A stretch of 64,000 bases of DNA from Actinomycetes bacterium (GTDB lineage: Bacteria > Actinomycetota > Acidimicrobiia > Acidimicrobiales > RAAP-2), in assembly GCA_021779855.1 (NCBI GenBank), contig JAJXZW010000004.1:1-64000 (forward strand), written 5' to 3'. The notes beneath the pieces are model-generated. The model ran no database searches, was not told where the DNA came from, and saw only the letters and a list, made by a program, of their open reading frames with translations. Numbering within the stretch: the stretch's first letter is position 1; each line of letters starts with the position of its first letter. A program made the position numbers and the translations under genes. Of the stretch, positions 1 through 14,252 are shown in pieces.

Positions 1-718
1 GCGGCGGCGGGCCCGGGCGGCGGGCCCGCTGGGCGGCCCGGCGCTCGCGACGCCGCTCGCGCACCGCCTCGTCCACCACCCGGGGTCCGGGGGACGCCGT
101 GGGAGAAGTCGCCTCGGGCAGATCGGCCAAGGCGAGCTCGGGATCGTCCTCGAGCAGACGGGCGCAGTGGGGCGCGGCGGCGAAGCCCTCGAGGACGGCG
201 TAGGCCAGCACGAGCAGCCGCTCGTCACGACTCAAGCCCTCGGCGGCGAGGGACGCGAGGGCATCGCGCAGCTGCTCCGCGGTCGGGTCGTCGGCCGCCG
301 CCCCGAGGCGCGCCACGACGGCCTCGAGGGGGGCCATCGTGAGCAGCTCCACGAGACCGCGCACGGCGGCCCACGGCGCGCGGGCGGCGAAGGCCGCGAC
401 GTCGCGGGTGCGCTGGAGCTCGCGCAGGGGCATCGCGACGACGGGCGTGAGCTTGCCCGAGGGCCTCAGGTCGAGGGCGTCGACGGTCTCGAGGACCCAC
501 GAGGGGGCGAGGCTCGCCAGGGCGCGCCGGGCCAGGGTCGGCCCAGAGGGGAGCTCGCCCACGGTTAGCGCGGGCTCACGCGCGCGCCAGCACGCGAGGC
601 GGGGGATGAGCCCGGGGGGCGACGAGCGACCGGGGACGCCGCGGACGAGGACCCGATTGTCCAGGCCACTGGAGCCGACTGACGACGTGCCATGGACCGC
701 CACTCTACGTCGGTGCAT
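1..718 (-). CDS. Hypothetical protein, 3' end beyond the left edge
   Basis: A reading frame enters from the left edge and shows clear coding character from about 562 leftwards: alternating hydrophobic and Ala/Leu/Glu-rich helical stretches such as LTPVVAMPLRELQRTRDVAAF and strong G/C third positions. Two starts are possible: ATG at 718 preceded by a purine-rich GAAGGGGGA, or GTG at 562. The part visible ends in a very basic Arg-rich stretch. I do not recognise the family and the C-terminus is missing, so no function is offered. It lies downstream of the fusion gene on the same strand. Confidence 0.6.
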   Translation of the reverse strand, partial: MHRRRVAVHGTSSVGSSGLDNRVLVRGVPGRSSPPGLIPRLACWRAREPALTVGELPSGPTLARRALASLAPSWVLETVDALDLRPSGKLTPVVAMPLRELQRTRDVAAFAARAPWAAVRGLVELLTMAPLEAVVARLGAAADDPTAEQLRDALASLAAEGLSRDERLLVLAYAVLEGFAAAPHCARLLEDDPELALADLPEATSPTASPGPRVVDEAVRERRRERRAAQRARRPGPPP

Positions 719-763
719 TCCCCCTTCACGCCAAGGGCGTCGGGGGCCGGCCACCCGCGGCCG

Positions 764-3397
764 TCAGTAGCCCGTCGGCTCGGTCTCGTACTCGGGTTCG
801 AGCGGATGGGCCTCGTGGTGCAGGGGACGCAGGGCGTCGCCGCGCTCGAGCCACACGAGGGCGTCGTAGCGCAGGCCCATCCGGGTCTCGACGTAGTTCC
901 CGTGCTCGCGCTGCGGGCGGTAGACCACGCCGATCGCCCGATGTCCTCGACGCTCCGACAGCCACGAGCTCGAGCGGTCCGCCCCGAAGTCGAGGACCGC
1001 GTCCATGCCGAGCGCCGTGTGCAGGACGTCCTCGTGACTGCCGGCCACTGCCCGAGGTACCGGCATGACGCGCTCCGCCCCACCCCAGGAATCGGCGGCG
1101 ATCACGCTTCCCTCGTACGAGGCCATCCCGATCAAGAAGACCCCTTCGCTCTCGTGACGCTCTCGGACGAGTTGACCGACGTTGACCATCCCCACCGACG
1201 CCATGTCAGTCGCCCTCGCGTCGCCCACGTGAGTGTTGTGCGCCCAGATCACCCCCCGGCTCTCGGCCCCCCGATGACGGGCCACTCGGTCGACGGTGTC
1301 GACCATGTGGATATCCCGCACGTTCCAGGATTCCCGGTCACCCCGGAGCATGGCGCGGTAGTACCGCTCGGCGCCCGCAGTGACCTCCGCGTTCTGCACC
1401 ACGTCGAACGCGCTCTCACCGCCGTCCAGCGCCAGCGCGCGAAGGCGAACCTCCGTCAGCAGTCTCGTGACGTCGCCCTCGCACGAGTCGGGCACCAGTC
1501 GCGTGGCCCGAGCGTAACGCTCGGGATCCTCGCCGTACGGGTCGAAGCACCGCCACGCGCGCAGGGCGCCGTCGAGGGCGTCGGGGGCGTTCTCGCGGAG
1601 CCAGTCGATGACGACGCGCAGCGAGTCCCACAACGAGTAGACGTCGAGTCCGTAGAACCCGACCTGGTCCTCCTCGGGTCGCCCCTCGTTCCAACGTCGC
1701 AGCCACTCGACGAAGTCGGCCACCTCCTCGTTGGCCCACATCCAGGTCGGCCACCGCTCCAGGCTCCCAAGAAGTTGTCGGGCGTCGCGGAACTGGTCGT
1801 CTCCACCTCGCACCCAGCGATTCACTCGCCAACAGTCGGGCCAGTCACCCTCGACGCCGACCCAATCGAAGCGCCTCTCGGCGATGAGGCGCTTGCTCAG
1901 TTCGCCCCGCCACGCGTAGAACTCGTGGGTGCCGTGGGAGGCCTCCCCGACGCCCACGAAGCGACAGTCTCCCGCACGCTGGACGAGCCCGTCCAGGTCG
2001 CCGGGCCCGTGGAGCGGCCGGGCCAGGGAGCGGATCTGCTGGTCGACCCCGGCGCGGGCGACCCGCCAGACGGGGCTCACCTCCCCCGGCAAGCGAAGGT
2101 AACGGCCGAACCACTCGCGAGCGAGCTGCGCCACCTCCTCAAGCGCCCCGGGCTCCTCGAAGAGGTGACCGGCGCCGGCCACGACCTCGAGCCGGGCCGA
2201 GGTCGGCAGTTGGCGGAGGGCCCGGCGGTTCAGGACGAGAACCTCGCTGTCGGCCCCCCCGACAATCAAGAGGGTGGGCGCCCTCACCCGGTCGAGTACC
2301 GCACTCGCCAGGTCGACGCGGCCCCCACGCGACACGACCGCGCTCACGCGCTCGTCGCCCTGGGCGGCGGCGACGAGGGCCGACGCCGCGCCGGTGCTCG
2401 CACCGAAGTAGCCGAGCGCGAGCCCCGTAGCCCGAGGATCGGCCTCCAGCCATCGCGTGGCCGCGACCAGCCTCGAGGCCAACAGTTGGATGTTGAAGAC
2501 GTTCGCGCGGTCGGCCTCCTCCTCGACCGTCAGGAGGTCCAGGAGCAGGGTGCCGATGCCCGCTGCGTTCAGACGCTTGGCCACTTGTTGGTTGCGGGGG
2601 CTGTGCCGACTGCTCCCGCTGCCGTGGGCGAAGATCACGATGCCACGCGCGCCGTCGGGGACGACCAAGCGGCCCGCGAGCATCACCCCGCCCACGGCAA
2701 TGGGCTCGTCGCCCGTCTCGTCCCCACCCCACGCTCCCGCACGGGCGCGATCGGCCACGCGCGAGCGCGCCCGCGAGAGCAGCTCGACCACCGTCGCGTC
2801 GGGGGTCGCGGGGAACTCGTCGTAGTACTGGCCCACCGCGTAGAAGTCCTCCGGGGCTTGAACCAAGACGACCACGTCGGCGTCGGGGAAGCGCTCGAGC
2901 ACGGCGGGCGGACCCACCGGAGTCGCGAAGACGACTTCAGCGGCACCACGCGCACGCGCGACGCGACACGCCACGCGCGCGGTCGCCCCGGTCGCGACAC
3001 CGTCGTCGACGATGACGGCGCATCGCCCCGCAAGCTCCACAGCCGGCTGGCCCCCTCGCAGCAGGTCGACTCGGGCCTCGAGCAGGCGCCGCTCCCGAGC
3101 TCGGACCGACGCAATCTCCGCCTCGCTCACCCCGGTCTTCGCGACGACGCGAGGGTCGAGGTACTCAGCCCCGCCCTCGCCGATCGCACCCATGGCCAGT
3201 TCGGGCTGAGACGGGACGCCCAACTTGCGCACCACGATGACGTCCAGCGGGGCGTCCAGTGAGAGTGCTACCTCGGCCGCGACGGGGACGCCGCCGCGAG
3301 GTAGGCCGAGCACGACCACGTCACGGCCCTTGAGAAAGCCCAACCGCGCGGCCAACTTCCGACCGGCGTCGGTGCGGTCCGAGAAGACGGTCACCAC
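764..3397 (-). CDS. Phosphoribosyltransferase / dienelactone hydrolase-like / erythromycin esterase-like fusion protein
   Basis: An 877-residue cytoplasmic protein with three recognisable modules. Residues about 1-215 are a type I phosphoribosyltransferase with the PRPP loop VIVDDGVATGAT. Residues about 225-435 are an alpha/beta hydrolase of the dienelactone-hydrolase kind (FAHGSGSSRHS, GYFGASTGAAS as nucleophile elbow, GAGHLFEE for the His). Residues about 450-870 match the erythromycin-esterase superfamily, including GEASHGTHEF and the GVEGDWPD segment that carry catalytic His and Glu residues in that family. From general knowledge, mycobacteria carry related two-domain combinations in dormancy-regulon proteins such as Rv0571c and Rv2030c. 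The real substrate is unknown; macrolide resistance should not be assumed. Start is GTG GTG behind a GGAG-containing stretch. Confidence 0.88.
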   Translation of the reverse strand: MVTVFSDRTDAGRKLAARLGFLKGRDVVVLGLPRGGVPVAAEVALSLDAPLDVIVVRKLGVPSQPELAMGAIGEGGAEYLDPRVVAKTGVSEAEIASVRARERRLLEARVDLLRGGQPAVELAGRCAVIVDDGVATGATARVACRVARARGAAEVVFATPVGPPAVLERFPDADVVVLVQAPEDFYAVGQYYDEFPATPDATVVELLSRARSRVADRARAGAWGGDETGDEPIAVGGVMLAGRLVVPDGARGIVIFAHGSGSSRHSPRNQQVAKRLNAAGIGTLLLDLLTVEEEADRANVFNIQLLASRLVAATRWLEADPRATGLALGYFGASTGAASALVAAAQGDERVSAVVSRGGRVDLASAVLDRVRAPTLLIVGGADSEVLVLNRRALRQLPTSARLEVVAGAGHLFEEPGALEEVAQLAREWFGRYLRLPGEVSPVWRVARAGVDQQIRSLARPLHGPGDLDGLVQRAGDCRFVGVGEASHGTHEFYAWRGELSKRLIAERRFDWVGVEGDWPDCWRVNRWVRGGDDQFRDARQLLGSLERWPTWMWANEEVADFVEWLRRWNEGRPEEDQVGFYGLDVYSLWDSLRVVIDWLRENAPDALDGALRAWRCFDPYGEDPERYARATRLVPDSCEGDVTRLLTEVRLRALALDGGESAFDVVQNAEVTAGAERYYRAMLRGDRESWNVRDIHMVDTVDRVARHRGAESRGVIWAHNTHVGDARATDMASVGMVNVGQLVRERHESEGVFLIGMASYEGSVIAADSWGGAERVMPVPRAVAGSHEDVLHTALGMDAVLDFGADRSSSWLSERRGHRAIGVVYRPQREHGNYVETRMGLRYDALVWLERGDALRPLHHEAHPLEPEYETEPTGY

Positions 3398-3944
3398 TCC
3401 ACGGCCTACTCCACCACCGTCGGTGGCCCAAGGGACGTTCGACCCCTCCCCGTGCCGGCCCGCTCTCCCCGCGGGCGGGCAGGGGGCTCATCCTCCCGAC
3501 GCCGGGTTGAGGCACCCGCTGGGTCGCTTGTGCGACCGCGGAACCCCCGCGTTCGAGGAGAGTCAGCGCATTTCCTAGGTGATCGGACCCCTGGCTAGCG
3601 CAGCAACTCGCGGGCGACGACGACGCGCCGGCAGAGTGCCCCCCGTCGCTACGCCACCTCCGTCGCCACACCGGTGCGCGATTCGCACGTGCATCGGGAT
3701 GGCGACGGCTGCGTCGAAGGGTACCGGAGGCTGTGACACGGCCGCCCGAATTCCGGAACGCTCCCCGTCGGCACAGTCGTTCAGTGCAGTCGGTTCGCCT
3801 CCATTGGGCTCCCGACGGCCCTAGACGATGACCGCGTGAATGTTGGCGGTCACGACGTAAGCAGAGGTCTCGGATACAACGTCTCGGCTACGTGGCTGAG
3901 CCCCATTCCCCGTGTTCCGGCAAAGACCCACCATGACTGGAAGT
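3398..3944. other. Intergenic stretch, no gene seen
   Basis: About 550 bases between the fusion gene and the toxin gene. Short open frames exist on both strands but lack coding bias, ribosome sites and recognisable motifs. It should contain the promoter of the fusion gene. I looked for a DosR-like palindrome and did not see one. GC content falls toward the toxin end, in line with acquired DNA. Confidence 0.5.
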
Positions 3945-4313
3945 TCATCGCTTACAGCGCAGGCGCGCTGCGATCCGCGTGAGATCCAGGTCTGACGACG
4001 CGACCTCCCACACGAGGTGGAAGGCCTCGTCATCGCTGAGCTCGGGCGCTGCGCCGTTCAGGTCACAGAAGACCACCGTGGCGAGCCACGCCAAGCGCTT
4101 GTTGCCATCCACGAGCGCGTGGTTCTTGACCAACGAATGAAGCAAAGCCGCCGCCTTCAGCTCCAACGTCGGGTAGAAGTCCTCCGAAAAGGCACCGGAG
4201 CGGGGTCGGGAGACTGCCGAGTCCAAAAGCCCGAGGTCTCGAATTGGCCCGATCTCGAGGAGTCGAACCATGTGGAGCACGTCCTCGAGTTCGAGGTACT
4301 CGATGTCCTTCAC
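3945..4313 (-). CDS. doc: Doc-type toxin of a type II toxin-antitoxin module (Fic fold)
   Basis: A 122-residue protein with the Fic/Doc signature HALVDGNKR at residues 65-73. In Doc of phage P1 this motif supports phosphorylation of elongation factor Tu, and the size matches Doc rather than long Fic AMP-transferases. The GTG start at 4313 was preferred to an ATG at 4346 because GTGA then overlaps the antitoxin stop, giving translational coupling, and because the protein would begin VKDIEYLELEDVL as Doc proteins do. The pair lies just left of the integrated element's boundary and has lower GC than the core genes. The module assignment is strong; the target is inferred from the family. Confidence 0.88.
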   Translation of the reverse strand: MKDIEYLELEDVLHMVRLLEIGPIRDLGLLDSAVSRPRSGAFSEDFYPTLELKAAALLHSLVKNHALVDGNKRLAWLATVVFCDLNGAAPELSDDEAFHLVWEVASSDLDLTRIAARLRCKR

Positions 4314-4516
4314 TCCGTACCGAGTCGCTCCAAGACGTCGTGCCAACGAGCGAGCATTCGAGAGCTCGAGTCCGCCACGCGACCCGTGTGCTCACTTCGC
4401 TCATAGCGCTCGAGAACGGCCCGACGCACGATCTCTTGGCGTGAGAGACCTTCGGAAGCCGAGAGCGCGTCGAGCGCCAAGTCGAGGACCTTGTCGGTGC
4501 GCACGGTGAAGGCCAT
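4310..4516 (-). CDS. Ribbon-helix-helix antitoxin partner of Doc
   Basis: A 68-residue protein beginning MAFTVRTDKVLDLALDAL, with the short beta strand plus two helices of CopG/Arc-type repressors (residues about 2-45) and a C-terminal part likely to bind the toxin. The frame stays open to an ATG at 4543, but that codon lies inside the operator palindrome, so ATG 4516 is the likelier start. It precedes the toxin gene and overlaps it by 4 nt. The family normally represses its own operon. Confidence 0.82.
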   Translation of the reverse strand: MAFTVRTDKVLDLALDALSASEGLSRQEIVRRAVLERYERSEHTGRVADSSSRMLARWHDVLERLGTE

Positions 4517-4522
4517 GCGAGA

Positions 4523-4543
4523 ATGATACCACTTTGGTATCAT
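4523..4543. promoter_or_regulatory. Perfect palindromic operator of the toxin-antitoxin operon
   Basis: Two 9-base arms, ATGATACCA and TGGTATCAT, flank a 3-base centre, a perfect inverted repeat. It starts 7 bases upstream of the antitoxin ATG at 4516, where a ribbon-helix-helix repressor would bind. Sequence is seen directly; autoregulation is inferred from the family. Confidence 0.75.
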
Positions 4544-4644
4544 CCCTGCTCAGAATACTCTGCGCCAATCGGGTTTCGCGATGGGCCCTCCACCCACCGA
4601 CGGACCCGGGTTCGACGGTGGACGTCGCCGCTAACCCAGCAGGC

Positions 4645-4697
4645 GCCTCGCCACGACCACGCGCTGGATCTGGTTGGTGCCCTCGTAGATCTGGGTG
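4645..4697 (-). repeat. Left attachment-site copy (53-bp direct repeat)
   Basis: Identical over 53 bases to 13124-13176, and one mismatch further out the match extends by six more bases. Read on the minus strand it encodes the end of acyl-CoA dehydrogenase; the displaced copy ends ARRLLG and a TAG-type stop at 4631-4633 instead of ARHLLS. No upstream part of the gene is present, so this is a leftover gene end, not a gene. Confidence 0.85.
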
Positions 4698-4812
4698 CTG
4701 TGGCTCACGCGTCCAACGTATCCGTGAGGCCATCGTTTTCAAGGCTTCCCGTCCGTACAGAGAGCCTCCCGCCGCCCTCTAACTCCGAGTTGTAGGGATG
4801 AAAGTAGGGATG
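4681..4812. repeat. End-associated repeat, copy 1
   Basis: About 130 bases that align without gaps, at roughly 70% identity by eye, to 8941-9072. It begins inside the attachment repeat and ends with two direct copies of TAGGGATG (4793-4800 and 4805-4812). The doubled octamer also lies beside the right attachment site, so it may be an arm-type integrase site. A third, more diverged copy is at about 10955-11035. Confidence 0.6.
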
Positions 4813-4844
4813 CTCAGACGGTCCACTGAAGGGCACCGGATTTC

Positions 4845-5186
4845 AGGTTGACGGTTCGGTGGGAATGGGTCGACCTCGTCCAGTTCGAGTGAGAATTTCG
4901 AGGGGTCTGTCCCAGGGGCTGAACAGCAGGGACAGCGCCACGGCGACCACGACCACCCCGGCGAGCCGCGGCGCCGTGTGCTGGGAGACGACGGCGCGGC
5001 CGACCGTGGTCGTGGGGGACCCGAGCCCACGAACACCGCGCCGAAGCCGGCGATGAACTGAGGGTGTCACGGGTGAGCCACCACCGGCCGCGCCGGCGGG
5101 CGCCGGTGAGGAGGCGTCGGCGGGGTGCCGGCGCCCCGTGGTCCGGGGACGAGCGGGTACCCGATCGCGAGCGTGGCCGTGCTCAT
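4845..5186 (-). pseudogene. Decayed CcdA-like membrane protein gene
   Basis: Pieces in different minus-strand frames resemble the thiol-redox transporter CcdA: an N-terminal MSTATLAIGYPLVPG, then FIAGFGAVFV, then, after a frame change near 5025, PTTTVGRAVV and the hydrophobic LAGVVVVAVALSLLF. CcdA proteins have an equivalent order, with a PLVPG segment after the first helix, but here the helix pair between them is missing and stop codons interrupt the frames. It is therefore read as a frameshifted and internally deleted relic. The recognition is by eye and moderate. Confidence 0.4.
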
Positions 5187-5431
5187 CGGCCCGCGCTCGT
5201 GCTCCGCGCGGCTCGCTGAGGCCCATGAGAGCTGTCCACGGTGGTCCTCCCTGGTTCAGCGGTCGCTCCCGCCGTGCGCTACATACCCTCGGGGCATAAA
5301 TCCCGGAGGCGGGCGGGCGGCTCTCGTCCGATCGACCCGTGCGACCCGTCTCCTATTCCCGGACGACCGGCTCGCGAGCCGACTCCCCGAGCGACCCGGG
5401 GGGCCGGGATCGCACGCTGCTAAGGTCGACG
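5187..5431. other. Intergenic stretch with a possible CsoR-like site
   Basis: Between the ccdA relic and the riboswitch no gene is seen. At 5283-5298 there is an imperfect inverted repeat, ATACCCTCGGGGCATA, of the kind bound by CsoR-family copper or persulfide sensors. It is placed to control the minus-strand relic. A TAAGGT hexamer at 5421-5426 could be the -10 box for the riboswitch transcript on the plus strand, starting near 5433. Both sites are weak evidence. Confidence 0.35.
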
Positions 5432-5538
5432 TCGCTTCATCGGGAGCTCGGGCGAACCGGGCTGAGAGGGTGAGCGTACGGCTGGGCCGTTCCATCACCG
5501 ACCGACGAACTTGTCCGGGTAATGCCGGCGTAAGGAGG
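5432..5538 (+). promoter_or_regulatory. TPP riboswitch (THI element), translational type
   Basis: The conserved TPP-aptamer landmarks are in the right order: a P2 stem formed by GCTCGG and CCGGGC, the invariant GGGCTGAGAGGG at about 5459-5470, a variable P3 helix, then CGAACTT and the P5 hairpin CCGGGTAATGCCGG followed by CGTAAGGA. The last purine-rich part overlaps the ribosome-binding site AAGGAGG (about 5532-5538) of the next gene. Binding of thiamine pyrophosphate would therefore be expected to close P1 and block translation. No terminator hairpin lies between the aptamer and the gene. Confidence 0.9.
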
Positions 5539-5541
5539 AGC

Positions 5542-6924
5542 ATGGACGCACTCTCGTCATTCACCGTCGTCACCGGCGACGTCCGGTCGGAGGTCGCGCG
5601 GACCCTGGAGGAGCCGGTGCCCCAGTCTCTCGGGGTCTTCGACCAGTTCGGACTGTGGGGGAACCTCGGGGTGAGCCTGCTCGGCTTCACCGGAGCGATC
5701 TTCGTGTTGCAGCCGGGAGGGACGGGGACACCGGAGCTCTCGCTGGCCGCGGCGATGACCTCGATCGTGCTCGGGACCCTGGTCGGGACGCTGACGATCT
5801 CGGCCTCGGCGGTGGCCGGGGCACGAACCGGAGCGCCGGGGATGGTGCTGCTGCGCGGCTTGCTTGGCCGGCGCCTCTCTTACGTACCGACCCTGCTCAA
5901 CGTCGTCCAGCTCTTCGGTTGGACGATCTTCGAGCTCGTGACCATCGCCACGGCAGCCCACGTGGTCGCGCCCGGGGCGCCCCGCTGGCTCTACGTCACG
6001 ATCGCGGGCATCCTCACTGGGCTGCTCACCCTGCGGCCCCTCGGTGCAATACGGATCCTGCGCCGCGTGGCCACACCCGCCGTCCTCGTGGTGCTCGCCT
6101 ACCTCGCGGTCGAGATGCTGCGTCACCCACTGCCCGCGCTGACCCACGGAACGTGGTCGGGGTTCTGGGTCGCGACCGACACCGTCGTCGCGGCGGCGGT
6201 GTCCTTCGCGCCCCTCGCCGCGGACTACACCCGGCACGCCCGCACGGCCCGGTCGGCGTTCTGGGGATCACTCGTCGGATACGGGTCGACTCAGGTCCTG
6301 TGCTACGGCATCGGCCTCGTCGCGCTGGTCACCTTCGCGAAGACGCCGTCGGACATCTACGGCGCGTTCGTCGCGGTGCCCCTCGGTGCGCTCGGCTTCG
6401 CCGTCTTGGTCACGCGAGAGCTCGACCAATCCTTCGCCGACGTGTACTCGACCGTCGTCTCCGTGCAGAACGCGCGACCCCGTTGGGATCGACGAGTCCT
6501 CGCCGGCGTCGTGGCGGCCCTCAGCACCGTTCTCGCGCTCACGATCAATATCTCGGACTACGAGAACTTTCTCATCTTGTTGGGCTCGGTCTTCGTGCCG
6601 CTCACGGCGGTGTTCCTTGTCGACTTCTACGTCAAGCACCCGCGCGAGATCGGAGTGTCGGCGGCGCGCCGCCCGGCGATGGTCGTCGCGTGGCTGGTGG
6701 GCTTCGTGGTCTACCAGCTCATCAACCCCGGATACATCTCCTGGTGGGCGTCGATCTGGGCCCACGTCGCTTCATTCGTCGGATTCCGCGTCCAACCCTG
6801 GATGTCCGCCTCCCTGATCTCCTTCGGCGTTTCCGCGGCCGCTGCGGCGCTCCTGGGCGCGGTCGAGGGCGCACGGCGCCGCCGCGCGCCCGCCCGGAGG
6901 AACGACGGGCGCGAAACCTCGTGA
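5542..6924 (+). CDS. NCS1-family permease under TPP riboswitch control (probable thiamine or thiamine-precursor importer)
   Basis: A 460-residue inner-membrane protein with about twelve hydrophobic segments and the layout of cytosine/purine/hydantoin (NCS1) permeases: an N-terminal EEPVPQSLGVFDQFGLWGNLGVS region before the first helix, LLTLRPLGAIRILRR in mid-protein and ISDYENFLILLGSVFVP near the end. ATG 5542 follows an excellent AAGGAGGAG. Because a TPP riboswitch precedes it, the substrate is probably thiamine or the hydroxymethylpyrimidine moiety rather than a nucleobase; TPP-controlled NCS1 proteins are often called CytX. GTGA couples it to the kinase gene downstream. Transport specificity is inferred from regulation. 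Confidence 0.85.
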   Translation: MDALSSFTVVTGDVRSEVARTLEEPVPQSLGVFDQFGLWGNLGVSLLGFTGAIFVLQPGGTGTPELSLAAAMTSIVLGTLVGTLTISASAVAGARTGAPGMVLLRGLLGRRLSYVPTLLNVVQLFGWTIFELVTIATAAHVVAPGAPRWLYVTIAGILTGLLTLRPLGAIRILRRVATPAVLVVLAYLAVEMLRHPLPALTHGTWSGFWVATDTVVAAAVSFAPLAADYTRHARTARSAFWGSLVGYGSTQVLCYGIGLVALVTFAKTPSDIYGAFVAVPLGALGFAVLVTRELDQSFADVYSTVVSVQNARPRWDRRVLAGVVAALSTVLALTINISDYENFLILLGSVFVPLTAVFLVDFYVKHPREIGVSAARRPAMVVAWLVGFVVYQLINPGYISWWASIWAHVASFVGFRVQPWMSASLISFGVSAAAAALLGAVEGARRRRAPARRNDGRETS

Positions 6925-8057
6925 CCCTGCATCGCGTGCACGGGATGGACCGTGGGGTGGTGGCTCCGGACTGGCCGCCGATCGACGACGGCGAGCTGTC
7001 GATCCCGCTGTCGGAGCTCGGACGTGACGCGCGCGACGTCGAGGTCCTGTGGCGAAGCCCGCGCCCGATGTCCGCGGGGGCGCTCGTGCGAGTCGGATCC
7101 GAGACGGTCTTCGTCAAGCGACACCATCACCGCGTCCGCTCCGTCGAACGCCTCGAGCGAGAGCACCGTTTCGCCGCACACCTTCGTGCGCACGGCGTGG
7201 AGACGCCCCGGGCCTTGCGCGGGGAGCATTCGAGCGTCGCGGTCGCCGGTGACTACCGCTACGAGGCGTACGAGCTCGCCTCCGGGCACGATCGATACCG
7301 CGACGTGCCCTCCTGGCACCCCTACGTTGACGGCGCCGACGCGCGCGGTGCCGGCCAGATGCTCGCACGCCTCCATCGGGCGGCCGCGTCCTTCGACGAG
7401 CCCGCCGATGACCTCAGCGTGCTCATGGACTCGTCGGTGCTCATCGACGGCCGCGACCCAGTGTCGGCAATCGAGGAGCTCCTTCGCCGCCGCCCGGGGC
7501 TCGCCCGGGCGACCGCGAGCTACCGACTGGTGGACGACGTGAGCGACGTGCTGAGCGGGCCGCTCGCGGTGGCCCACCGCGCAGCGCGAGAACTCTCTCG
7601 GCAGTGGACCCACGGCGACTGGCACCCTTCCAACTTGACGTGGGCTCCGGGATCGACGGGGAGGGTGCAGGCAGTGATCGACCTGGGCCTGGCGAATCGC
7701 ACCTTTGCGGTCCACGACCTCGCAACCGCGATCGAGCGGGCGGTGATCGATTGGTTAGACGTCGCGCGGCGCGGTGCCGTCAGCGCCGACCTCGGCGCGC
7801 TGGAGGCGCTGCTCGACGGCTACGCCGCCGAGCGTCCGCTTCACCGGAGCGACCTCGTCGCGCTAGCGGCCGTGCTGCCTGTCGTGCACGTCGAGTACGC
7901 CCTGTCGGAGGTCGAGTACTTCGGCGACGTGGTGAACTCACCCGCGAACCGGGACCTCGCCTACCACGGGTACCTCCTCGGCCACGCGCGGTGGTTCACG
8001 AGCGTCGCGGGGCGCGCCCTGCTCGGCGCAATCACCAGGCGAACGGTACTCGGCTGA
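6921..8057 (+). CDS. APH/choline-kinase-fold small-molecule kinase (candidate thiamine kinase)
   Basis: A 378-residue cytoplasmic protein of the aminoglycoside phosphotransferase/choline kinase superfamily. The catalytic loop is THGDWHPSNL (HxDxxxxN type, about residues 231-240) and the metal-binding Asp is in VIDLGLANR. An N-lobe Lys is available in ETVFVKRHHH. GTG 6921 overlaps the permease stop as GTGA, and translation to the left of it in this frame is only antisense-like noise. Bacterial thiamine kinase (ThiK) belongs to this superfamily, so together with the TPP riboswitch the likely job is to phosphorylate the imported vitamin or precursor. An antibiotic kinase is less likely given the operon. 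Confidence 0.75.
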   Translation: MTLHRVHGMDRGVVAPDWPPIDDGELSIPLSELGRDARDVEVLWRSPRPMSAGALVRVGSETVFVKRHHHRVRSVERLEREHRFAAHLRAHGVETPRALRGEHSSVAVAGDYRYEAYELASGHDRYRDVPSWHPYVDGADARGAGQMLARLHRAAASFDEPADDLSVLMDSSVLIDGRDPVSAIEELLRRRPGLARATASYRLVDDVSDVLSGPLAVAHRAARELSRQWTHGDWHPSNLTWAPGSTGRVQAVIDLGLANRTFAVHDLATAIERAVIDWLDVARRGAVSADLGALEALLDGYAAERPLHRSDLVALAAVLPVVHVEYALSEVEYFGDVVNSPANRDLAYHGYLLGHARWFTSVAGRALLGAITRRTVLG

Positions 8058-8310
8058 TCTCGCCCGCTCGCCGCGCCATCATCCGCGTGCCCGGTCAGGC
8101 GAGCGCTCGAGGTGGTTGACGGCACGAAACTCGTTGCGCTCACCGGTTGAAGACGCCGCCTTTCATCAAGGCCCGAGCTCGACAAGTGACGTGGAAAATA
8201 TTCCTGGGGCAGGTCAGTGTCAACCGGAGTCGGGGCAGACCCGAGCGAATAACATCTCGATCGCCGGGTCCCGACCTTTGAATCATCCCTCCACCACATG
8301 AGGACGACTG

Positions 8311-8739
8311 ATGAAGACTCACAAGAATGGTCGGATCGTAATGATTGCGAGCATCACTACTGTGTGCATCGCAGTGGGGATCGTGGTGATATCAGTCGAA
8401 CAAGGCAATGGCACCGAGGCTCCGACCGTCTCACTTACCCAAATATCTTTTATCTGCATGAGCGCAATTCACCACCCTGTGCGAATCAACTCGCGGACCG
8501 AAGTCCGCATTGCGACTGGCTACTTCAAGTCTGGAACAAGCGCGGTCGCGGTCTCCAACTACGAATTGAGAACTCTCACTGACGAGTTGTCGGGTTGCAT
8601 GGAGGAGTACGAGAATGGCTACTCCAAAGGCTTCAGGATGCTTACGATTTTTGGGTCAAGATTGCAAAGGTTGAGCTTTCAAAATCTTGTAGAGTACGCG
8701 CTGGTCGAGTCTGGGAAGTTTTCCAGAGTGACGACATGA
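8311..8739 (+). CDS. Small membrane-anchored or exported hypothetical protein
   Basis: A 142-residue product with a charged start (MKTHKNGR) and one hydrophobic segment at about residues 9-28, fitting a signal anchor or uncleaved signal peptide, then a hydrophilic domain containing two Cys. GAGGA ends 5 bases before the ATG. The gene has visibly lower GC and different codon use from the neighbouring permease and kinase, so it was probably acquired separately. No family is recognised. The 250 bases before it show no further gene. Confidence 0.6.
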   Translation: MKTHKNGRIVMIASITTVCIAVGIVVISVEQGNGTEAPTVSLTQISFICMSAIHHPVRINSRTEVRIATGYFKSGTSAVAVSNYELRTLTDELSGCMEEYENGYSKGFRMLTIFGSRLQRLSFQNLVEYALVESGKFSRVTT

Positions 8740-8784
8740 ATTCACGGTCGCCTATGCAAGCTCACGTGTGTCGAAGCACGTGTG

Positions 8785-8954
8785 AGATTCCCCAGTAGAA
8801 GTGGACGCCCGGTAAGCCAGTTCGTTGAACCGGCCGAGAGGACGTCACCATGGCAATCACCAGGAAGACGTTAACCCTTGAGTTCAAAATTGAGGCGGCC
8901 CATCGCGTCACCGACTCGGGCCGCAGTGTCGTCGAGGTCGCCCGAGAGATCTGA
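8785..8954 (+). pseudogene. IS3-family transposase OrfA, N-terminal fragment
   Basis: From ATG 8850 the frame gives 34 residues, MAITRKTLTLEFKIEAAHRV and on to EVAREI then a stop. This is the start of the helix-turn-helix OrfA of IS3-type elements (RRKFTPEFKAEAVRLV...GRSIAEVAREL in typical members). The bases before the ATG look like an IS left end with leader. Similarity stops abruptly at 8950 where end-repeat copy 2 begins, so the IS was cut by a later insertion or deletion. Confidence 0.7.
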
Positions 8955-9072
8955 GTGTTGTGACGCACTGGTCCAATGTATCCGTAGAGCCAGGAGTTTC
9001 AAGGCTGGCTGTCCGTCGTAGGAGCCCCTGCCCGCCCCTCATCGCCGAGTTGTAGGGATGAAAGTAGGGATG
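8941..9072. repeat. End-associated repeat, copy 2
   Basis: Ungapped match to 4681-4812, including GATCTG.GTG at the left, TTTCAAGGCT in the middle and a shared final stretch around GAGTTGTAGGGATG. The doubled TAGGGATG lies at 9053-9060 and 9065-9072. The 53-bp attachment core itself is absent here; its place is taken by the IS3 fragment. Confidence 0.6.
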
Positions 9073-9484
9073 CCTAGACCCCCTGCTTCGGACCCCGGCG
9101 TCGCAAGTTCGTAGTTGGGGGGAGGGGTGGCGTTGCCTCGCTTGATGGGTAATTTGCGTCGACTGATTGTCCGACGAGCGTACGGGGGGCCATCCCTTCG
9201 CCCTGGCAGCGCGGATCGAATGAGAACACGAACGGACTGCTGCGCCACTACATGCCCAAGGGCCCCCGACCCGCTAGGGAAGGGGTAGGCGTTCCACGCT
9301 TGTCACGTTGTTAGTGGGCCGCTTAGGGGTGTGACCGGTGTGAAGTGACCAAGGATTCCTTGAGGCCGTGTCCCGATCCAGGTCGATCTGGTTGACTCGT
9401 AGTTTGTACTCGCGTCAAAGGGGGATCCGGGCAATACCTGGGCAACGTGCTGCGAAGAGCTGCGCGGGGCTAGTCAGAACCCCA
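9073..9484. other. Intergenic stretch, no gene seen
   Basis: About 410 bases of lower-GC sequence between repeat copy 2 and the MFS gene. Short open frames run through it without coding bias or ribosome sites. It probably represents decayed mobile DNA. Confidence 0.45.
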
Positions 9485-10705
9485 TCAGCCATGCTGTGCA
9501 GGCGGAGGAACAAGCTGTACGACTGATGGCACGAGCAGCGTTAGAAGGGTCAAGACGAAGATGAGGACACCGCATCCAACCAGCGTCGTTGAGATACCGA
9601 TGCTCGAGGCCACGGGGCCCGCGAAGGCCATCCCCAGTGGCAGAACCGCAAGCGATCCGATCCAGTCGTATGCACTCACGCGCGACAGGACGTCTTCAGG
9701 TATCTCGCGCTGCAGTGTCGTCGTCCACTGCACATTGAATACCGCGATGAACACGCCGACTACGAATCCGCTCAGAGCGATGACGACCACGGAGGATCGA
9801 GCTGCGATGAAGAACAGCGGCACTGGATAAATCAGCGACGACAGAGTCGCAACAAACAGGGGGCGACGAGGATGCACTCGTAGCATCACGATCCCCCCTA
9901 GAAGCGCGCCCACGCCCTCCGCTGCAAGGATCGCCCCCCACGACGTCGCTCCCCCGAGTGACTCCTTGGCGACGACGGGTCCGAGAACAAACAGCGAGGC
10001 GAAGAGGGCATTGACCAGCGCGGACTGAATCACGATGACCCACAGCCACGTGCGGGACCAGAATTCGCGCCAGCCTTCTCGGAGCAACTCAACAAACGCG
10101 TCGGAGTGCTCGCTGGGATTCCAGTCAATGCGAATGAGTGCCAGCGACATCACGCTGACGAAATAGGTCGCAGCGTCGGCAATGATGGCCCATCCGGGGC
10201 TGACGACGGCAACGATGACTCCCGCGATGGCCGGGCCAATCACGGCGCCGCTCGAATTCGACATTCCGTTAAGCGCGTTGCCTTGCTGTAGCATCTCGGG
10301 CTCGAGCAGTTGCGGCACGATGCCCGTCATGGCTGGATTAAAGAATGCTTCGCCGATACCCATCACGGCGGCGAGCGCCAGGAATCCCCACAGGGGAGGG
10401 GGTCCAAGGAGGACCCAGATACCCAGTCCCATTTCGGCAAGGGTTCGCAAGGAGTCCGCCAGGAGCATCAAGCGGCGCCTACTCATTCGATCGCCTACGA
10501 CCCCACCAACGAGGACGAGAATCAGGAGAGGGATCGTTCCTGCCGCGAGCACATAACCGACGTCGCTCGCCGTTCCGTGGGCCAAGACCGCGAAGGCAAT
10601 GGCGACCGGCGCCATCCCCGTTCCAATCTGCGACGCCGTTTGCCCAAGAAAGAAGAGTCGGAAGTTTCGTTCCCCTAGAGGGCGAAACCAGTTCGTAGAA
10701 CGCAC
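9485..10705 (-). CDS. MFS drug-efflux-type transporter (DHA3/MefA-like)
   Basis: A 406-residue inner-membrane protein with about twelve hydrophobic segments. The loop between helices 2 and 3 reads GGVVGDRMSRRRLMLLAD, the MFS signature of the DHA3 (macrolide exporter-like) group, and the N-terminus begins FRPLGERNFRLFFLGQTASQIG. GTG 10705 is preceded, exactly 6 bases away, by TAGGCT (10712-10717), suggesting a leaderless transcript. It sits inside the integrated element between two end repeats, and its GC is somewhat lower than that of core genes. The substrate cannot be told from sequence. Confidence 0.82.
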   Translation of the reverse strand: MRSTNWFRPLGERNFRLFFLGQTASQIGTGMAPVAIAFAVLAHGTASDVGYVLAAGTIPLLILVLVGGVVGDRMSRRRLMLLADSLRTLAEMGLGIWVLLGPPPLWGFLALAAVMGIGEAFFNPAMTGIVPQLLEPEMLQQGNALNGMSNSSGAVIGPAIAGVIVAVVSPGWAIIADAATYFVSVMSLALIRIDWNPSEHSDAFVELLREGWREFWSRTWLWVIVIQSALVNALFASLFVLGPVVAKESLGGATSWGAILAAEGVGALLGGIVMLRVHPRRPLFVATLSSLIYPVPLFFIAARSSVVVIALSGFVVGVFIAVFNVQWTTTLQREIPEDVLSRVSAYDWIGSLAVLPLGMAFAGPVASSIGISTTLVGCGVLIFVLTLLTLLVPSVVQLVPPPAQHG

Positions 10706-11119
10706 CGGGTGAGCCTAACTATTGGGGTGGATCCGAGCTGCTGGAACTGCTCTACAAACTTGAGTGGGCTTTGGTACCCTCGTCGACGCTCCTCACCTCG
10801 AACGAGCCGACAAACCGCCGATCTGCGTGGTAGCTCAAGTCAATCGATGTGATGACGCTTAGAGTTTCTTCCCTCCCTTCGCTGGTGTACCGCCCCGGGG
10901 AGAGGCACCGGACGAAGTCGAGGGGCCCCTCCGGGTGCCTCACGCCGTCGTCATGTCCGAGAGTGAGATGTTGTGATGCACGCGTCCAATGTGCCCGTGA
11001 AGCCAGTCGCTTCAAGGCACTTTGTCCGCCGATGGAGTTCTTCAGGGTTAAGTCCCGACGAGTGGTGTAAGAGTTCGCGTGTCGTGACGTTCGCCGCGCC
11101 AACCTCTTCGTCGTGAACT
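10706..11119. other. Decayed stretch between MFS gene and IS256 relic
   Basis: It includes end-repeat copy 3 (about 10955-11035). On the minus strand 10752-10950 there is an open stretch that reads somewhat protein-like (TSIDLSYHADRRFVGSFEVR), perhaps the tail of a lost gene, but it has no credible start and no family was recognised. Confidence 0.4.
10955..11035. repeat. End-associated repeat, copy 3 (diverged)
   Basis: Matches copies 1 and 2 over GTTGTGA, the CGCGTCCAATGT block, CCCGTGAAGCC and the CTTCAAGGC block, then loses similarity before the TAGGGATG pair, which is missing here. Alignment needs small gaps. It is the most diverged copy and nearest to the integrase. Confidence 0.5.
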
Positions 11120-11372
11120 CTATGCCGCGGTGAGATCGATGGCAACCTCCTCGCGTGCGGCGATGATCGCCGGCCTTGGATCCTCGAGTGATGGTTCATT
11201 GATCGTCGGCTGACTGAGTGACTCGATGCGCACGTAACGCCTCGAGATGGCCCACTCGTCGTTCTGCTCAGCCAGCAGCGCCCCGACGAGACGGATGACC
11301 GCCTGACGGTTAGGGAAGATCCCGACCACGTCGGTGCGCCGGCGGATCTCCTTGATGACGTAAAGAAAGGTT
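11120..11372 (-). pseudogene. IS256 (Mutator)-family transposase, C-terminal fragment
   Basis: The minus strand reads [19 protein letters not shown] followed by [22 protein letters not shown] and ends at a stop, the conserved C-terminus of Mutator-type transposases such as IS1081. A stop codon lies just upstream and the catalytic DDE part is absent, so this is a relic of about 80 residues. The following bases to 11606 hold one short minus-strand frame without recognisable features. Confidence 0.75.
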
Positions 11373-11606
11373 CAACAGATCCACCCCTCGGACGTGCTCG
11401 CCGGGCTCGGTCCCGTTGCCCGGGGCCGGCCGGCGCGTAGCGCCGAGACGGCCCGTCGGGCCAAGTCGTAGTCATCAGATTCGTTGAAAAGAAGCGGTCT
11501 CAAGAACAATTCTGGATGAACGTCGCACATTCCTGTTCGATTCGGCCCCAAATCGTGGGCTCCATAAGTAGAGGGCGAATTTTTCGCTCCATTGCGAAGG
11601 AGCACC

Positions 11607-11972
11607 ATGGGACTGCCTATCGACTTCACGAGCCCGAGGTCTGCAGGGGCCGGAGCAGCCGAACTGAGTCTCGACTGCGAGACCCAGGTGCAGTGGTCGC
11701 CAAACGCTAGGGGAGCCCGCCGGGCAGTCTTGTCAGTGACGGAGGCGGCGCAGGTGCTCGGAATCTCGCGGAGCCACGCCTACGACCTGGTCGCGCGGGG
11801 CGACCTGCCCTCGCTACGCCTCGGCCGTCGCGTCCTGATCCCGGCCACGGCGCTGGGACGCATCCTCTCGCCCGAGTCGGGTGAGCGAGACTGCCTCTGT
11901 CACTTGAGGTCGAGTGCCGCCCCGAGCGACTCGGCCACCGGGGCGTCGCGTGACTCGACCGCGTGGGCGTAG
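11607..11972 (+). CDS. Putative excisionase / helix-turn-helix DNA-binding protein
   Basis: A 121-residue protein whose middle (about residues 40-85) is a MerR-like excisionase domain: LSVTEAAQVLGISRSHAYDL, then ARGDLPSLRLGRRVLIPATAL. ATG 11607 follows GAAGGAG at good spacing. Its 3' end overlaps the 3' end of the convergent integrase gene by 73 bases, and the last ~30 residues are probably only a read-out of that overlap. In this position next to a tyrosine integrase the likely role is control of excision direction. Confidence 0.75.
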   Translation: MGLPIDFTSPRSAGAGAAELSLDCETQVQWSPNARGARRAVLSVTEAAQVLGISRSHAYDLVARGDLPSLRLGRRVLIPATALGRILSPESGERDCLCHLRSSAAPSDSATGASRDSTAWA

Positions 11973-13021
11973 GTGCGCAGCGTCATCGACGGGTTCGCGT
12001 GACCCAGGCGGTTGGCGACCGTGCGGATGTCGTGGCCCTGTGCGATCGAGGTCGTCGCGGACCAGTGGCGAAGGTCGTGCAGACGCCACCGGCGATCCAC
12101 GCCAGCGGTGTCCCTCGCGCGACGCCACCACGCCGTCACCCGCTCGGGGTTGACGGGCCGCTCCCCCACGCTGAGGACCCAGGGTCCGAGGTCCTCGTAC
12201 GCGGCACGCAGGGCCGCGAGGGCCACGGCCGTCGCCGCGTCCAGGGTCACCGTGCGGTGGTTGGCGGTCTTCGTGAGATCGTCCCGCAGGACCGGCTTCG
12301 CGCCGGCCCCAGGGTCTCGGAGGATGGCGATGCTCGAGTCGATCGTGATTTGACGGCCCTTGAGGTCCTCCCAGCGCAGCGCGGCGAGCTCGGAGCGGCG
12401 CGCTCCGGTGACGGCCGCGAGACGAAGCGCCAGGGCCGCCTGGGGCTCGACGGCGCCCCGGGCCACGAGCTCCGACGCCGCGACGAGCACCCGGCGGACC
12501 TCGTCGGCGCCGAGCGTCCCGCGTGGTGAGCTCTTTCGCCGGGCCAGGCGCGCGACGGCGACGACGTTCGCGCTCACCCACCCCCACCTGACGGCGAGGG
12601 TGACGGCCGCGCGCAGGGCCCCGTGCTGGTTGCGCAGGCTCTCCTCGCCCGTTCCCCTCGAGCGCTGACGGGCGTGCCAGCGGTCGACGTCGGCGGCGCT
12701 GAGGCGCGCCAAAGGGACCTCGGCGATCGGGTCGGCCTTGATCGAGCGCACCCGGCTCCGGTTGTCGGCGAGCGACGAGGGCGCCCAGGAGGGCCGGTTC
12801 TGGTCGACCCAGAGGTCGAGCAGGTCGGCGACCTTGACGCGACTGGACGCCGACCTCGGGGCCGATAGCACCATCTCGGCGGCCGCGCGCTTCGCGTCGC
12901 TCTTCGTGCCGCGCACCGTCTTGCTCACCTGGACCGGCCGGCCCCGCTCGTCGCGTCCGATGAAGGCGCGGACCTCGAAGACCCCCGGTCGGCGCTCGCG
13001 GATGGTGGCCACGGCCCCCAA
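11900..13021 (-). CDS. int: Tyrosine-type site-specific integrase
   Basis: A 373-residue recombinase. Residues about 1-60 form an arm-type DNA-binding domain, about 60-160 the SAM-like core-binding domain, and the rest the catalytic domain with Arg in TGARRSELAALRW, the HxLRH-type box LHDLRHWSATT, LGHANPSMTLRTY with the nucleophile Tyr. All catalytic positions appear present. The annotated start is TTG 13021; GTG 13012 is an alternative. The gene reads away from the right attachment repeat, 103 bases from it, as in integrated actinobacterial elements that use gene ends as targets. Confidence 0.92.
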   Translation of the reverse strand: MGAVATIRERRPGVFEVRAFIGRDERGRPVQVSKTVRGTKSDAKRAAAEMVLSAPRSASSRVKVADLLDLWVDQNRPSWAPSSLADNRSRVRSIKADPIAEVPLARLSAADVDRWHARQRSRGTGEESLRNQHGALRAAVTLAVRWGWVSANVVAVARLARRKSSPRGTLGADEVRRVLVAASELVARGAVEPQAALALRLAAVTGARRSELAALRWEDLKGRQITIDSSIAILRDPGAGAKPVLRDDLTKTANHRTVTLDAATAVALAALRAAYEDLGPWVLSVGERPVNPERVTAWWRRARDTAGVDRRWRLHDLRHWSATTSIAQGHDIRTVANRLGHANPSMTLRTYAHAVESRDAPVAESLGAALDLK

Positions 13022-13042
13022 CGGTCGCTCGAAAGGGGGCTG

Positions 13043-13061
13043 TAGGGATGAAGTAGGGATG
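13043..13061. repeat. Doubled TAGGGATG beside the right attachment site
   Basis: Two direct copies, 13043-13050 and 13054-13061, separated by 3 bases, lie between the integrase start and the attachment repeat. The same pair with a 4-base gap lies inside the left end (4793-4812) and in repeat copy 2. Arm-type binding sites for the integrase or its regulator are a reasonable reading; operator sites for int expression are an alternative. Confidence 0.5.
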
Positions 13062-13109
13062 GAGGGCCCGAATCGGCCCCAAACTGGCCCGCCCGTCCGG
13101 ACGGAAACC

Positions 13110-14252
13110 CTAGCTGAGCAGGTGCCTCGCCACGACCACGCGCTGGATCTGGTTGGTGCCCTCGTAGATCTGGGTGATCTTCGCGTCGCGCATGAACCGC
13201 TCGACCGGGAACTCCTTGGTGTAGCCGTAGCCCCCGAGGAGCTGCACGGCGTCGGTCGTGACGCTCATGGCGGTGTCGGCCGCGTAGGACTTCGCGGCGG
13301 CCCCGAGGTAGCTGAGGTCGCCGTCGGGGTCGCCGTCGTCGATCGTCGCGCAGGCCCGGTACACCAGGGCCCGGGCCGCCTCGGTGCGAATGGCCATGTC
13401 GGCGAGTATGAAGCGCAGCCCCTGGAACTCGCTGATCGGCGAGCCGAAGGCCGAGCGCCCCTTCATGTACTGCGCGGCGTAGTCGATCGCCCCCTGGGCG
13501 ATCCCCACGGCCTGGGCGCCGATCGTCGGGCGGGACCGGTCGAGGGTGTGCATCGCGATCTTGAAGCCCTCGCCCTCGGCGCCGACGCGGTGGCTGGCCG
13601 GCACGCGCACGCCGTCGAAGACGACCTCGCCGGTGGGCGAGCCGCGCAGCCCGAGCTTGTCCTCGTGCTTGGGGAACTGCACCCCCCACCCCTTCTCGAC
13701 GAGGAAGCAGGTGATCCCCCGGTGTCCCGCCTCGGGGTCGGTCTTGGCGAAGACCGTGTAGGTCTCCGAGACCCCCGCGTTGGTGATCCAGTACTTGGCT
13801 CCCGTGAGGACGTAGTCGTCCCCGTCGCGCACCGCGCGGGCGCGCATCGCCGCCACGTCGCTGCCGGCGTCGGCCTCCGAGAGGCAGTAGGAGGCCTGGA
13901 TCTCGCCGGTGGCGATGCGGGGCAGGTAGGCGCGCTTCACCTCCTCGGAGGCGAAGTTCATGATCGGCAGCATGCCCAGCTTGGAGATCAGCATCGTCAC
14001 CGAGGTCGACGCGCAGCCCCGCGCGATCTCCTCGGCCATGATCGCCTGGGTGACCATGTCCGCCCCGGCCCCGCCGTAGGCCTCGGGGACCCATAGAGCC
14101 GGCAGCTCCATCTCGCGGCACGCGTCGAAGCTCTCCTGGGGGAAGGCCTGGTCGCGGTCGTAACGGGCGGCGTTGGGCGCGATGCGCTCGTCGACGAACG
14201 AGCGCATCACGTCGCGGAAGGCCCGCTGCTCATCGGTCAGCGTGAAGCTCAC
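13110..14252 (-). CDS. Acyl-CoA dehydrogenase (integration target)
   Basis: A 380-residue flavoprotein of the acyl-CoA dehydrogenase family, oxidising acyl-CoA thioesters to enoyl-CoA with electrons passed to ETF. Seen are the SYCLSEADAGSDVAAMRARA-type FAD-binding segment, the KYWITNAG motif, the DRSRPTIGAQAVGIAQGA helix, QLLGGYGYTKEFPVER and the terminal IYEGTNQIQR. The Glu of YEGTNQIQ is the usual catalytic base in the short-chain class. GTG 14252 overlaps the upstream gene stop (GTGA). The integrated element lies directly behind its 3' end. Confidence 0.93.
   Translation of the reverse strand: MSFTLTDEQRAFRDVMRSFVDERIAPNAARYDRDQAFPQESFDACREMELPALWVPEAYGGAGADMVTQAIMAEEIARGCASTSVTMLISKLGMLPIMNFASEEVKRAYLPRIATGEIQASYCLSEADAGSDVAAMRARAVRDGDDYVLTGAKYWITNAGVSETYTVFAKTDPEAGHRGITCFLVEKGWGVQFPKHEDKLGLRGSPTGEVVFDGVRVPASHRVGAEGEGFKIAMHTLDRSRPTIGAQAVGIAQGAIDYAAQYMKGRSAFGSPISEFQGLRFILADMAIRTEAARALVYRACATIDDGDPDGDLSYLGAAAKSYAADTAMSVTTDAVQLLGGYGYTKEFPVERFMRDAKITQIYEGTNQIQRVVVARHLLS
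13124..13176 (-). repeat. Right attachment-site copy (53-bp direct repeat)
   Basis: Identical to 4645-4697. It lies within the last 23 codons of acyl-CoA dehydrogenase and covers codons for the conserved YEGTNQIQR helix, so integration here leaves the gene reading frame complete. Confidence 0.85.

Follow-up and report, generated by a model that had tools for sequence, protein, structure and literature searches.

Numerous bacteria have no ThiC and depend on importing vitamin B1 or parts of it. One importer known from thiamine gene clusters is CytX (TIGR02358), a putative transporter of hydroxymethylpyrimidine (HMP) belonging to the NCS1 family. Here we describe a stretch of 64,000 nucleotides, called the window below, from an actinobacterial genome (assembly GCA_021779855.1, contig JAJXZW010000004.1, positions 1 to 64,000), in which a thiamine pyrophosphate (TPP) riboswitch aptamer is followed by two coupled genes, encoding an NCS1 permease and a kinase of the APH fold. 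To judge from its parts, this operon most likely imports and phosphorylates vitamin B1. The window permease resembles CytX in being an NCS1 protein for which CytX is the top model and in having a TPP aptamer in front. It differs in scoring 219.5 bits where the cut-off is 309.85, for which reason CytX membership was rejected, in being followed by a kinase gene, and in 46 positions that are unlike those of two TPP-linked NCS1 proteins without a kinase from the same order.

Passages of PMC5613172 use the name PnuT for TPP-regulated PnuC-type proteins, report that one of them transports thiamine, and describe tnr3, the partner gene of PnuT in Bacteroidetes, as encoding a thiamine-phosphorylating enzyme. 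These Bacteroidetes operons (TonB receptor, PnuT, Tnr3) are like ours in joining a transporter to a phosphorylating enzyme with TPP riboswitches, and proteobacterial members of the window kinase family do adjoin PnuC-type genes. Tnr3 is of the pyrophosphorylase type and belongs to another family, whereas the APH-fold kinase of the window would need ThiL from the host. ThiK (YcfN) of E. coli is an APH-type kinase with an HxDxHxxN-like motif, and the reaction we propose is the same; it has 274 amino acids where the window kinase has 378, and there is no significant sequence match between them. Thiamine functions also occur on accessory DNA, on the plasmids of R. etli (thiCOGE) and E. amylovora (pEA29), as cited in parts of PMC3479022; those are biosynthesis genes, whereas the window has an import-and-kinase pair on an integrase-bearing element. 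In the literature searched we met neither the kinase family nor an NCS1-APH pair; subscription papers are thinly covered there, and the pairing may be in print. The main text of a TPP-regulon survey (PMC3766115) mentions no cytX, pnuT or kinase.

The aptamer and the two coupled genes

A covariance-model search with E-values (cmscan) matched the TPP riboswitch model RF00059 in front of the permease gene over its whole length, model positions 1 to 105 of 105, with 48.4 bits and E 1.2e-7. The earlier note had recognized the core parts of a TPP aptamer at this place and proposed such a search, which bears it out. The score lies below the Rfam gathering score of 54.3 bits, and a run over the whole window at that threshold therefore listed no aptamer. 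This is the sole TPP match at E ≤ 0.001 across the host assembly, which comprises 2.06 Mb in 51 contigs and is 97% complete (the window lies on contig C12). Four sister leaders, two from genome G008 and one each from G015 and G020, exceed the gathering score (54.8, 55.3, 56.7 and 59.1 bits), and those of G009 (51.2 bits) and G011 (40.6 bits) fall under it. In an RNAalifold consensus of 20 leaders, which had been selected as RF00059 matches, 11 of the 22 pairs show two-sided changes that preserve pairing.

Both the CTGAGA segment and GGGTAATGCCGGCGTAAGGA are seen in the aptamer, the latter running on into the ribosome-binding site. The Shine-Dalgarno-like AAGGAGGA at 5532-5539 lies within the 3' side of the aptamer and ends two bases before the ATG at 5542, so that the aptamer extends into the start of the permease gene. 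Reading the sequence, GCUUC at the 5' end could pair with GGAGC (5537-5541), thereby covering the ribosome-binding site. This possible pairing is absent from the minimum-energy fold of the leader, and P1 in Rfam's own register contains non-standard pairs.

The permease scores 52.4 bits against PF02133 (cut-off 23.5), placing it in the NCS1 family, and the kinase 85.6 bits against PF01636 (cut-off 23.2). The GTG start of the kinase at 6921 overlaps the permease stop at 6922-6924, and the pairing of an NCS1 permease with an APH kinase coupled by GTGA thus stands as the earlier note had it.

Among 23 genomes of the genus (the host and 22 sisters) the aptamer is present in six (G000, G008, G009, G011, G015 and G020). 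The same six carry the permease (E 1e-10) and the kinase, and none of the other 17 does; the permease is split between contigs in G009, G011 and G015. G008 has two copies of the aptamer-permease-kinase module, on contigs C115 and C67, the second truncated by the contig end. The kinase occurs in 11 of 37 genus genomes and in none of 24 genomes from other families of the order. In trees of 35 kinase and 19 permease sequences the window kinase and permease both lie near those of loci L042 and L043; the immediate forks have weak support, and the larger groups (12 and 5 rows) strong support. The two Bacillota kinases are placed among proteobacterial ones.

The kinase family and its genomic partners

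The kinase was modelled with AlphaFold2 from 51 natural sequences, those of the window and of 50 of the 80 named loci introduced below, giving a mean pLDDT of 95.2. K66, E81, H231, D233, N238 and D254 are invariant in all 51 aligned sequences. The closest solved fold is N-acetylhexosamine 1-kinase (Z 25.9, 4.1 Å, 336 aligned), and the model also matches homoserine kinase (Z 25.8, 4.0 Å, 304 aligned), aminopropanol kinase (Z 22.5, 3.7 Å, 297 aligned) and the choline kinase LicA (Z 20.0, 3.2 Å, 274 aligned); other APH-fold matches are aminoglycoside and amicoumacin kinases. The top neighbours of the model are kinases of small alcohols and amino alcohols, a fold that does not fix the substrate. 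The ThiK structure is not among the fold matches listed, which excludes nothing. A profile of the family finds homoserine kinase 2ppq (E 3.8e-6) and YihE 1zyl (E 8.5e-4). Identity with ThiK was rejected, there being no match to TIGR02721 or NF007620 at E 0.01; as a control, E. coli ThiK scores 338.1 and 554.5 bits with these two models. Three annotated plasmid records call members of the family merely 'phosphotransferase'.

A pattern scan of one genome per species gave at least 595 stretches, at least 434 of them coding for a relative at E ≤ 1e-3. We retained the best 80 as named loci; together with four plasmid loci they make up the 84 of the neighbour survey. The closest among the matches listed come from assemblies titled Actinomycetes, Acidimicrobiaceae and Acidimicrobiales, with a few titled Acidobacteria. 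An NCS1 gene of the window's type lies beside the kinase at 23 of the 80 (22 titled actinobacterial, and L045 titled Acidobacteria), and a PnuC-type gene at 42. Five have a TonB receptor with no PnuC match, three a surrounding ThiXYZ-type operon (Metabacillus and Paenibacillus), and one (L061) a ykoD-type ABC gene with a TPP aptamer between two divergent genes. No such neighbour is found at the remaining six (L044, L084, L062, L068, L071 and L102). L044 and L084 start near a contig end, in L062 and L068 a TPP aptamer directly precedes the kinase, which is the next gene, and no link is seen in L071 and L102. All four plasmid loci, from Acinetobacter, Burkholderia, Novosphingobium and Sphingomonas, have PnuC-type and TonB-receptor genes.

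A riboswitch model built from the 20 leaders matches 52 of the 80 named loci, some of which are its source contigs and match by construction, as well as the window and the Sphingomonas plasmid locus L018. The earlier note had proposed looking for NCS1-APH pairs behind TPP riboswitches, and they are indeed found: 19 of the 23 NCS1 loci have a TPP match, and the remaining four have a permease truncated by the contig end. Matches also occur in 30 of the 42 PnuC loci and in L061, L062 and L068. In Sphingomonas loci the aptamer precedes the receptor gene and the kinase follows it; L018 scores 66.4 bits with the Rfam model.

These associations bear on whether the kinase might be an antibiotic or other phosphotransferase, standing behind the permease by chance and not a thiamine enzyme. 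Pfam assigns the protein to APH only, and aminoglycoside and amicoumacin kinases are among its fold matches, as that explanation would have it. We nevertheless regard it as very improbable, given that 74 of the 80 loci have an NCS1, PnuC-type, TonB-receptor, ThiXYZ-type or ykoD-type neighbour, that in two more a TPP aptamer immediately precedes the kinase, and that the catalytic residues are invariant in the 51 sequences.

The host pathway and the choice of substrate

ThiC was found in none of the 23 genus genomes; the same search was positive for 13 of 14 controls and, elsewhere in the order, for 6 of 14 genomes. The host genome has ThiG, ThiE and ThiD, the last above its cut-off. ThiL is represented by two partial matches on contigs C14 and C49, covering model positions 21-162 and 185-319, apparently one gene split by the assembly. 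Thiamine pyrophosphokinase (TIGR01378) was not found in the host, in a search with which 7 of 14 controls were positive. The genome thus appears to encode thiazole formation, coupling and the last phosphorylation but not the pyrimidine route through ThiC, in a search that left Thi5-type genes, ThiS, ThiO and ThiF aside, and the host is probably unable to make the pyrimidine half of vitamin B1. The salvage role suggested by the earlier note is supported by this gene set. Its question whether the host lacks thiamine synthesis genes has a divided answer: ThiC was not found, yet ThiG, ThiD, ThiE and ThiL-like pieces are present.

We place a probability of about 0.57 on a TPP-repressed operon of two genes that imports and phosphorylates thiamine, the host ThiL finishing the task. 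When TPP is scarce the leader would leave the ribosome-binding site free, and permease and kinase would be translated. The permease would import thiamine, and the kinase would convert it to thiamine monophosphate and so trap it in the cell, after which ThiL would form TPP. TPP would then bind the aptamer, whose 3' side holds the ribosome-binding site, and turn the operon off. The aptamer, gene order, protein families, linkage and the presence or absence of host pathway genes are computed results, from which we infer thiamine as the substrate of both proteins and TPP binding with translational control by the leader. Since thiamine pyrophosphokinase was not found and ThiL-like pieces are present, a thiamine kinase would be the step lacking for the use of thiamine, and because ThiD is present an additional HMP kinase would be redundant. 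We rank thiamine first for these two reasons together with the link of the kinase to PnuC-type genes and PnuT, and because another genome of the order (G040) has a thiamine pyrophosphokinase behind a TPP aptamer (114.3 bits, cut-off 76.4), with an ABC ATPase gene further on.

A number of observations weigh against import and phosphorylation of thiamine. On the side of the leader, the single sequence folds no more stably than shuffled versions (z 0.29); folding energy alone was set aside as an uninformative criterion for a riboswitch. On the side of the kinase, neither BLASTP nor HHalign gives a significant match to E. coli ThiK, and only the catalytic motif is common to both. Two further APH-family proteins of the host lie above the cut-off and are possible thiamine kinases, and there is one more marginal match. 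The ThiL pieces each fall under the cut-off (133.8 and 64.4 against 184.15 bits). Among the loci of the kinase family, a TPP match is lacking at 12 of the 42 named PnuC loci, and none of 11 loci without a match to our model (Pseudomonas, Burkholderia, Bacillota and other) reaches the Rfam gathering score for TPP. In those Rhodanobacter, Stenotrophomonas and similar loci that have a match, the aptamer stands after the kinase and before the TonB receptor, and at three plasmid loci the annotation of the PnuC-type gene reads nicotinamide riboside transporter PnuC.

Other objections of this kind favour HMP, the main rival substrate. The best model of the permease is CytX, a putative HMP transporter, and sections of PMC5874261 argue that CytX carries HMP, given its occurrence where ThiC is missing. 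The host gene set (ThiG, ThiD, ThiE and ThiL-like pieces, with no ThiC found) matches an HMP auxotroph, whose needs import of HMP alone would cover. Two further genomes of the order, G043 and G050, have a TPP-linked NCS1 gene followed by an unrelated gene, with neither the kinase nor ThiC. The permease could accordingly be an HMP importer of the CytX type, and the kinase could make HMP phosphate, to be carried on to TPP by ThiD, ThiE and ThiL. We consider this distinctly less probable than thiamine, as the host ThiD lies above its cut-off and is normally sufficient for HMP, the permease is under the CytX cut-off, and more than half of the named loci pair this kinase family with a PnuC-type transporter.

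The NCS1 proteins of G043 (238.4 bits) and G050 (222.7 bits) are likewise under the CytX cut-off. The kinase-linked permeases form a set of their own, being 60-78% identical to the window permease, with 47-49% for the two kinase-free ones. At 46 positions a residue constant in at least 18 of the 19 kinase-linked NCS1 proteins (the window and 18 others) is different in both G043 and G050, which fits a shifted permease substrate and is no proof of one. Alignment of the permease positions to cytosine permease 7qoa did not decide the substrate, and no solved-structure match was obtained for the two kinase-free proteins.

A last set of loci also speaks against thiamine. The ThiXYZ-type operon that houses the Bacillota kinase also encodes two NMT1-like proteins and a rhodanese, a content that points to the pyrimidine or another vitamer. 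At 11 of the 84 loci, from Pseudomonas, Acetobacter, an Oxalobacteraceae genome and Bacillota, the kinase has NMT1-like and rhodanese genes beside it, with differing transporters; the NMT1-like protein (L066:5046-5987, L077:5066-5983 and 9 further loci) has no signal peptide by eye. The kinase might then act on a thiamine breakdown product or a related alcohol, with the NMT1-like protein and the rhodanese as further steps of the route. We think this unlikely, since neither partner was found in the window's operon or near the kinase in actinobacterial loci, and we know of no route step that requires the two. A wider proposal seems to us doubtful to a similar degree: that this is an unrecognized, phylum-spanning kinase family for an unplaced thiamine vitamer, served by swappable NCS1, PnuC-type and ThiXYZ-type importers and, in Pseudomonas, Acetobacter and Bacillota, by a dedicated NMT1-like protein and rhodanese, one actinobacterial copy of which, on an integrative element, would give a pyrimidine auxotroph a new source of B1.

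The integrated element and its meaning

The operon lies between two 60-bp repeats (Table 1). In five single-base shuffles of the window the best match to the repeat had 27-30 mismatches, against one for the real pair, and the G+C fraction between the repeats, 0.66, is lower than the 0.73 to their right. In G001 the acyl-CoA dehydrogenase gene is 96% identical over 1131 bases, and its end joins directly to sequence 84.5% identical to window positions 3-596. The junction implies that window positions of about 597-13116 are missing there, that is, the element and a further 4 kb to its left; G001 has neither the kinase nor such a permease. Near the target gene, G005 and G017 also match this left flank, though more weakly and over short stretches. 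Integrase homologues (66-69%) occur at the same site in G004 and G021, with neither kinase nor permease, on contigs that end shortly beyond. Contig C49 of G003 has three copies of the repeat (10036, 24714 and 43309) with metabolic-looking genes between them, and C45 of G013 has two. These copies mark the 3' end of the acyl-CoA dehydrogenase gene as a site of recurrent integration in the genus.

Table 1. Positions of the operon and of the element that carries it, in window coordinates.
Feature	Position	Strand	Basis or remark
TPP riboswitch aptamer	5430..5553	+	RF00059; covarying pairs; sister leaders above gathering score
Possible P1 5' strand, GCUUC	5434..5438	+	putative, read from sequence
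NCS1-family permease, 460 aa, CytX-like	5542..6924	+	PF02133, TIGR02358
APH-fold kinase, 378 aa, predicted thiamine kinase; motifs VFVKRHH, HGDWHPSNL, DLG	6921..8057	+	PF01636
Integrated element, 8.5 kb repeat to repeat	4638..13176		repeats; unoccupied site in G001
Left attachment-site repeat, 60 bp	4638..4697		98% identical to 13117-13176, 1 mismatch
Right attachment-site repeat, 60 bp	13117..13176		within 3' end of acyl-CoA dehydrogenase gene
MFS exporter, second cargo gene of element	9485..10705	-	PF05977, PF07690
Excisionase-type helix-turn-helix protein	11592..11972	+	TIGR01764, 47.5 bits (cut-off 28.8)
Tyrosine recombinase (integrase)	11900..13021	-	PF00589, 72.3 bits; adjoins right repeat
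Acyl-CoA dehydrogenase gene, 3' end = integration site	13110..14252	-	PF00441, PF02770, PF02771; similar genes in genus

With an integrase gene beside an attachment-site direct repeat in the target gene, and an unoccupied site elsewhere, the structure is that of an integrative element. To judge from these features this copy of the operon is on an integrase-bearing element, as the earlier note had said of its location. The description of the operon as a mobile unit holds for this copy and does not extend further. The pairing is not peculiar to mobile DNA: the kinase occurs in 11 of the 37 genus genomes examined for it, and at E 1e-6 a set of 39 other kinase loci (L132-L138 and L042-L073, with at least three contigs in the set twice and short flanks) yielded no homologue of the window integrase or excisionase, in a search that took in no other integrase families. 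The idea that the module is mobile in general was therefore dropped. The operon is real, its list of parts is correct and this copy is on the element; as a general statement, a mobile thiamine unit goes too far.

The element and its left flank contain some further features. An open frame of 142 amino acids (8311-8739, forward strand) between kinase and exporter matches nothing in Pfam at E 0.01. The stretch adjoining the left repeat recurs in three degenerate copies (75-83%) spread through the element, at 8942-9079, 10957-11037 and 4687-4819, which may be left over from earlier insertions. A gene for a Fic/Doc-type toxin (3945-4543, reverse strand), with a ribbon-helix-helix gene upstream, lies immediately outside the left repeat, in a stretch missing at the G001 site. 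Further left, a single long frame (764-3397, reverse strand) has phosphoribosyltransferase, alpha/beta-hydrolase and erythromycin-esterase-type domains in tandem.

Gene order ties the kinase family to importers of the thiamine or pyrimidine type in at least four lineages: actinobacteria, several orders of Proteobacteria, Metabacillus and Paenibacillus. In organisms with ThiL and no pyrophosphokinase the family could carry out the first phosphorylation, and its link to the neighbouring transporters makes their substrates directly testable. As the operon lies on an element of 8.5 kb, a genome holding it would have gained a bypass of the missing ThiC, and the element-borne copy suggests how dependence on vitamin B1 might be repaired through one insertion.

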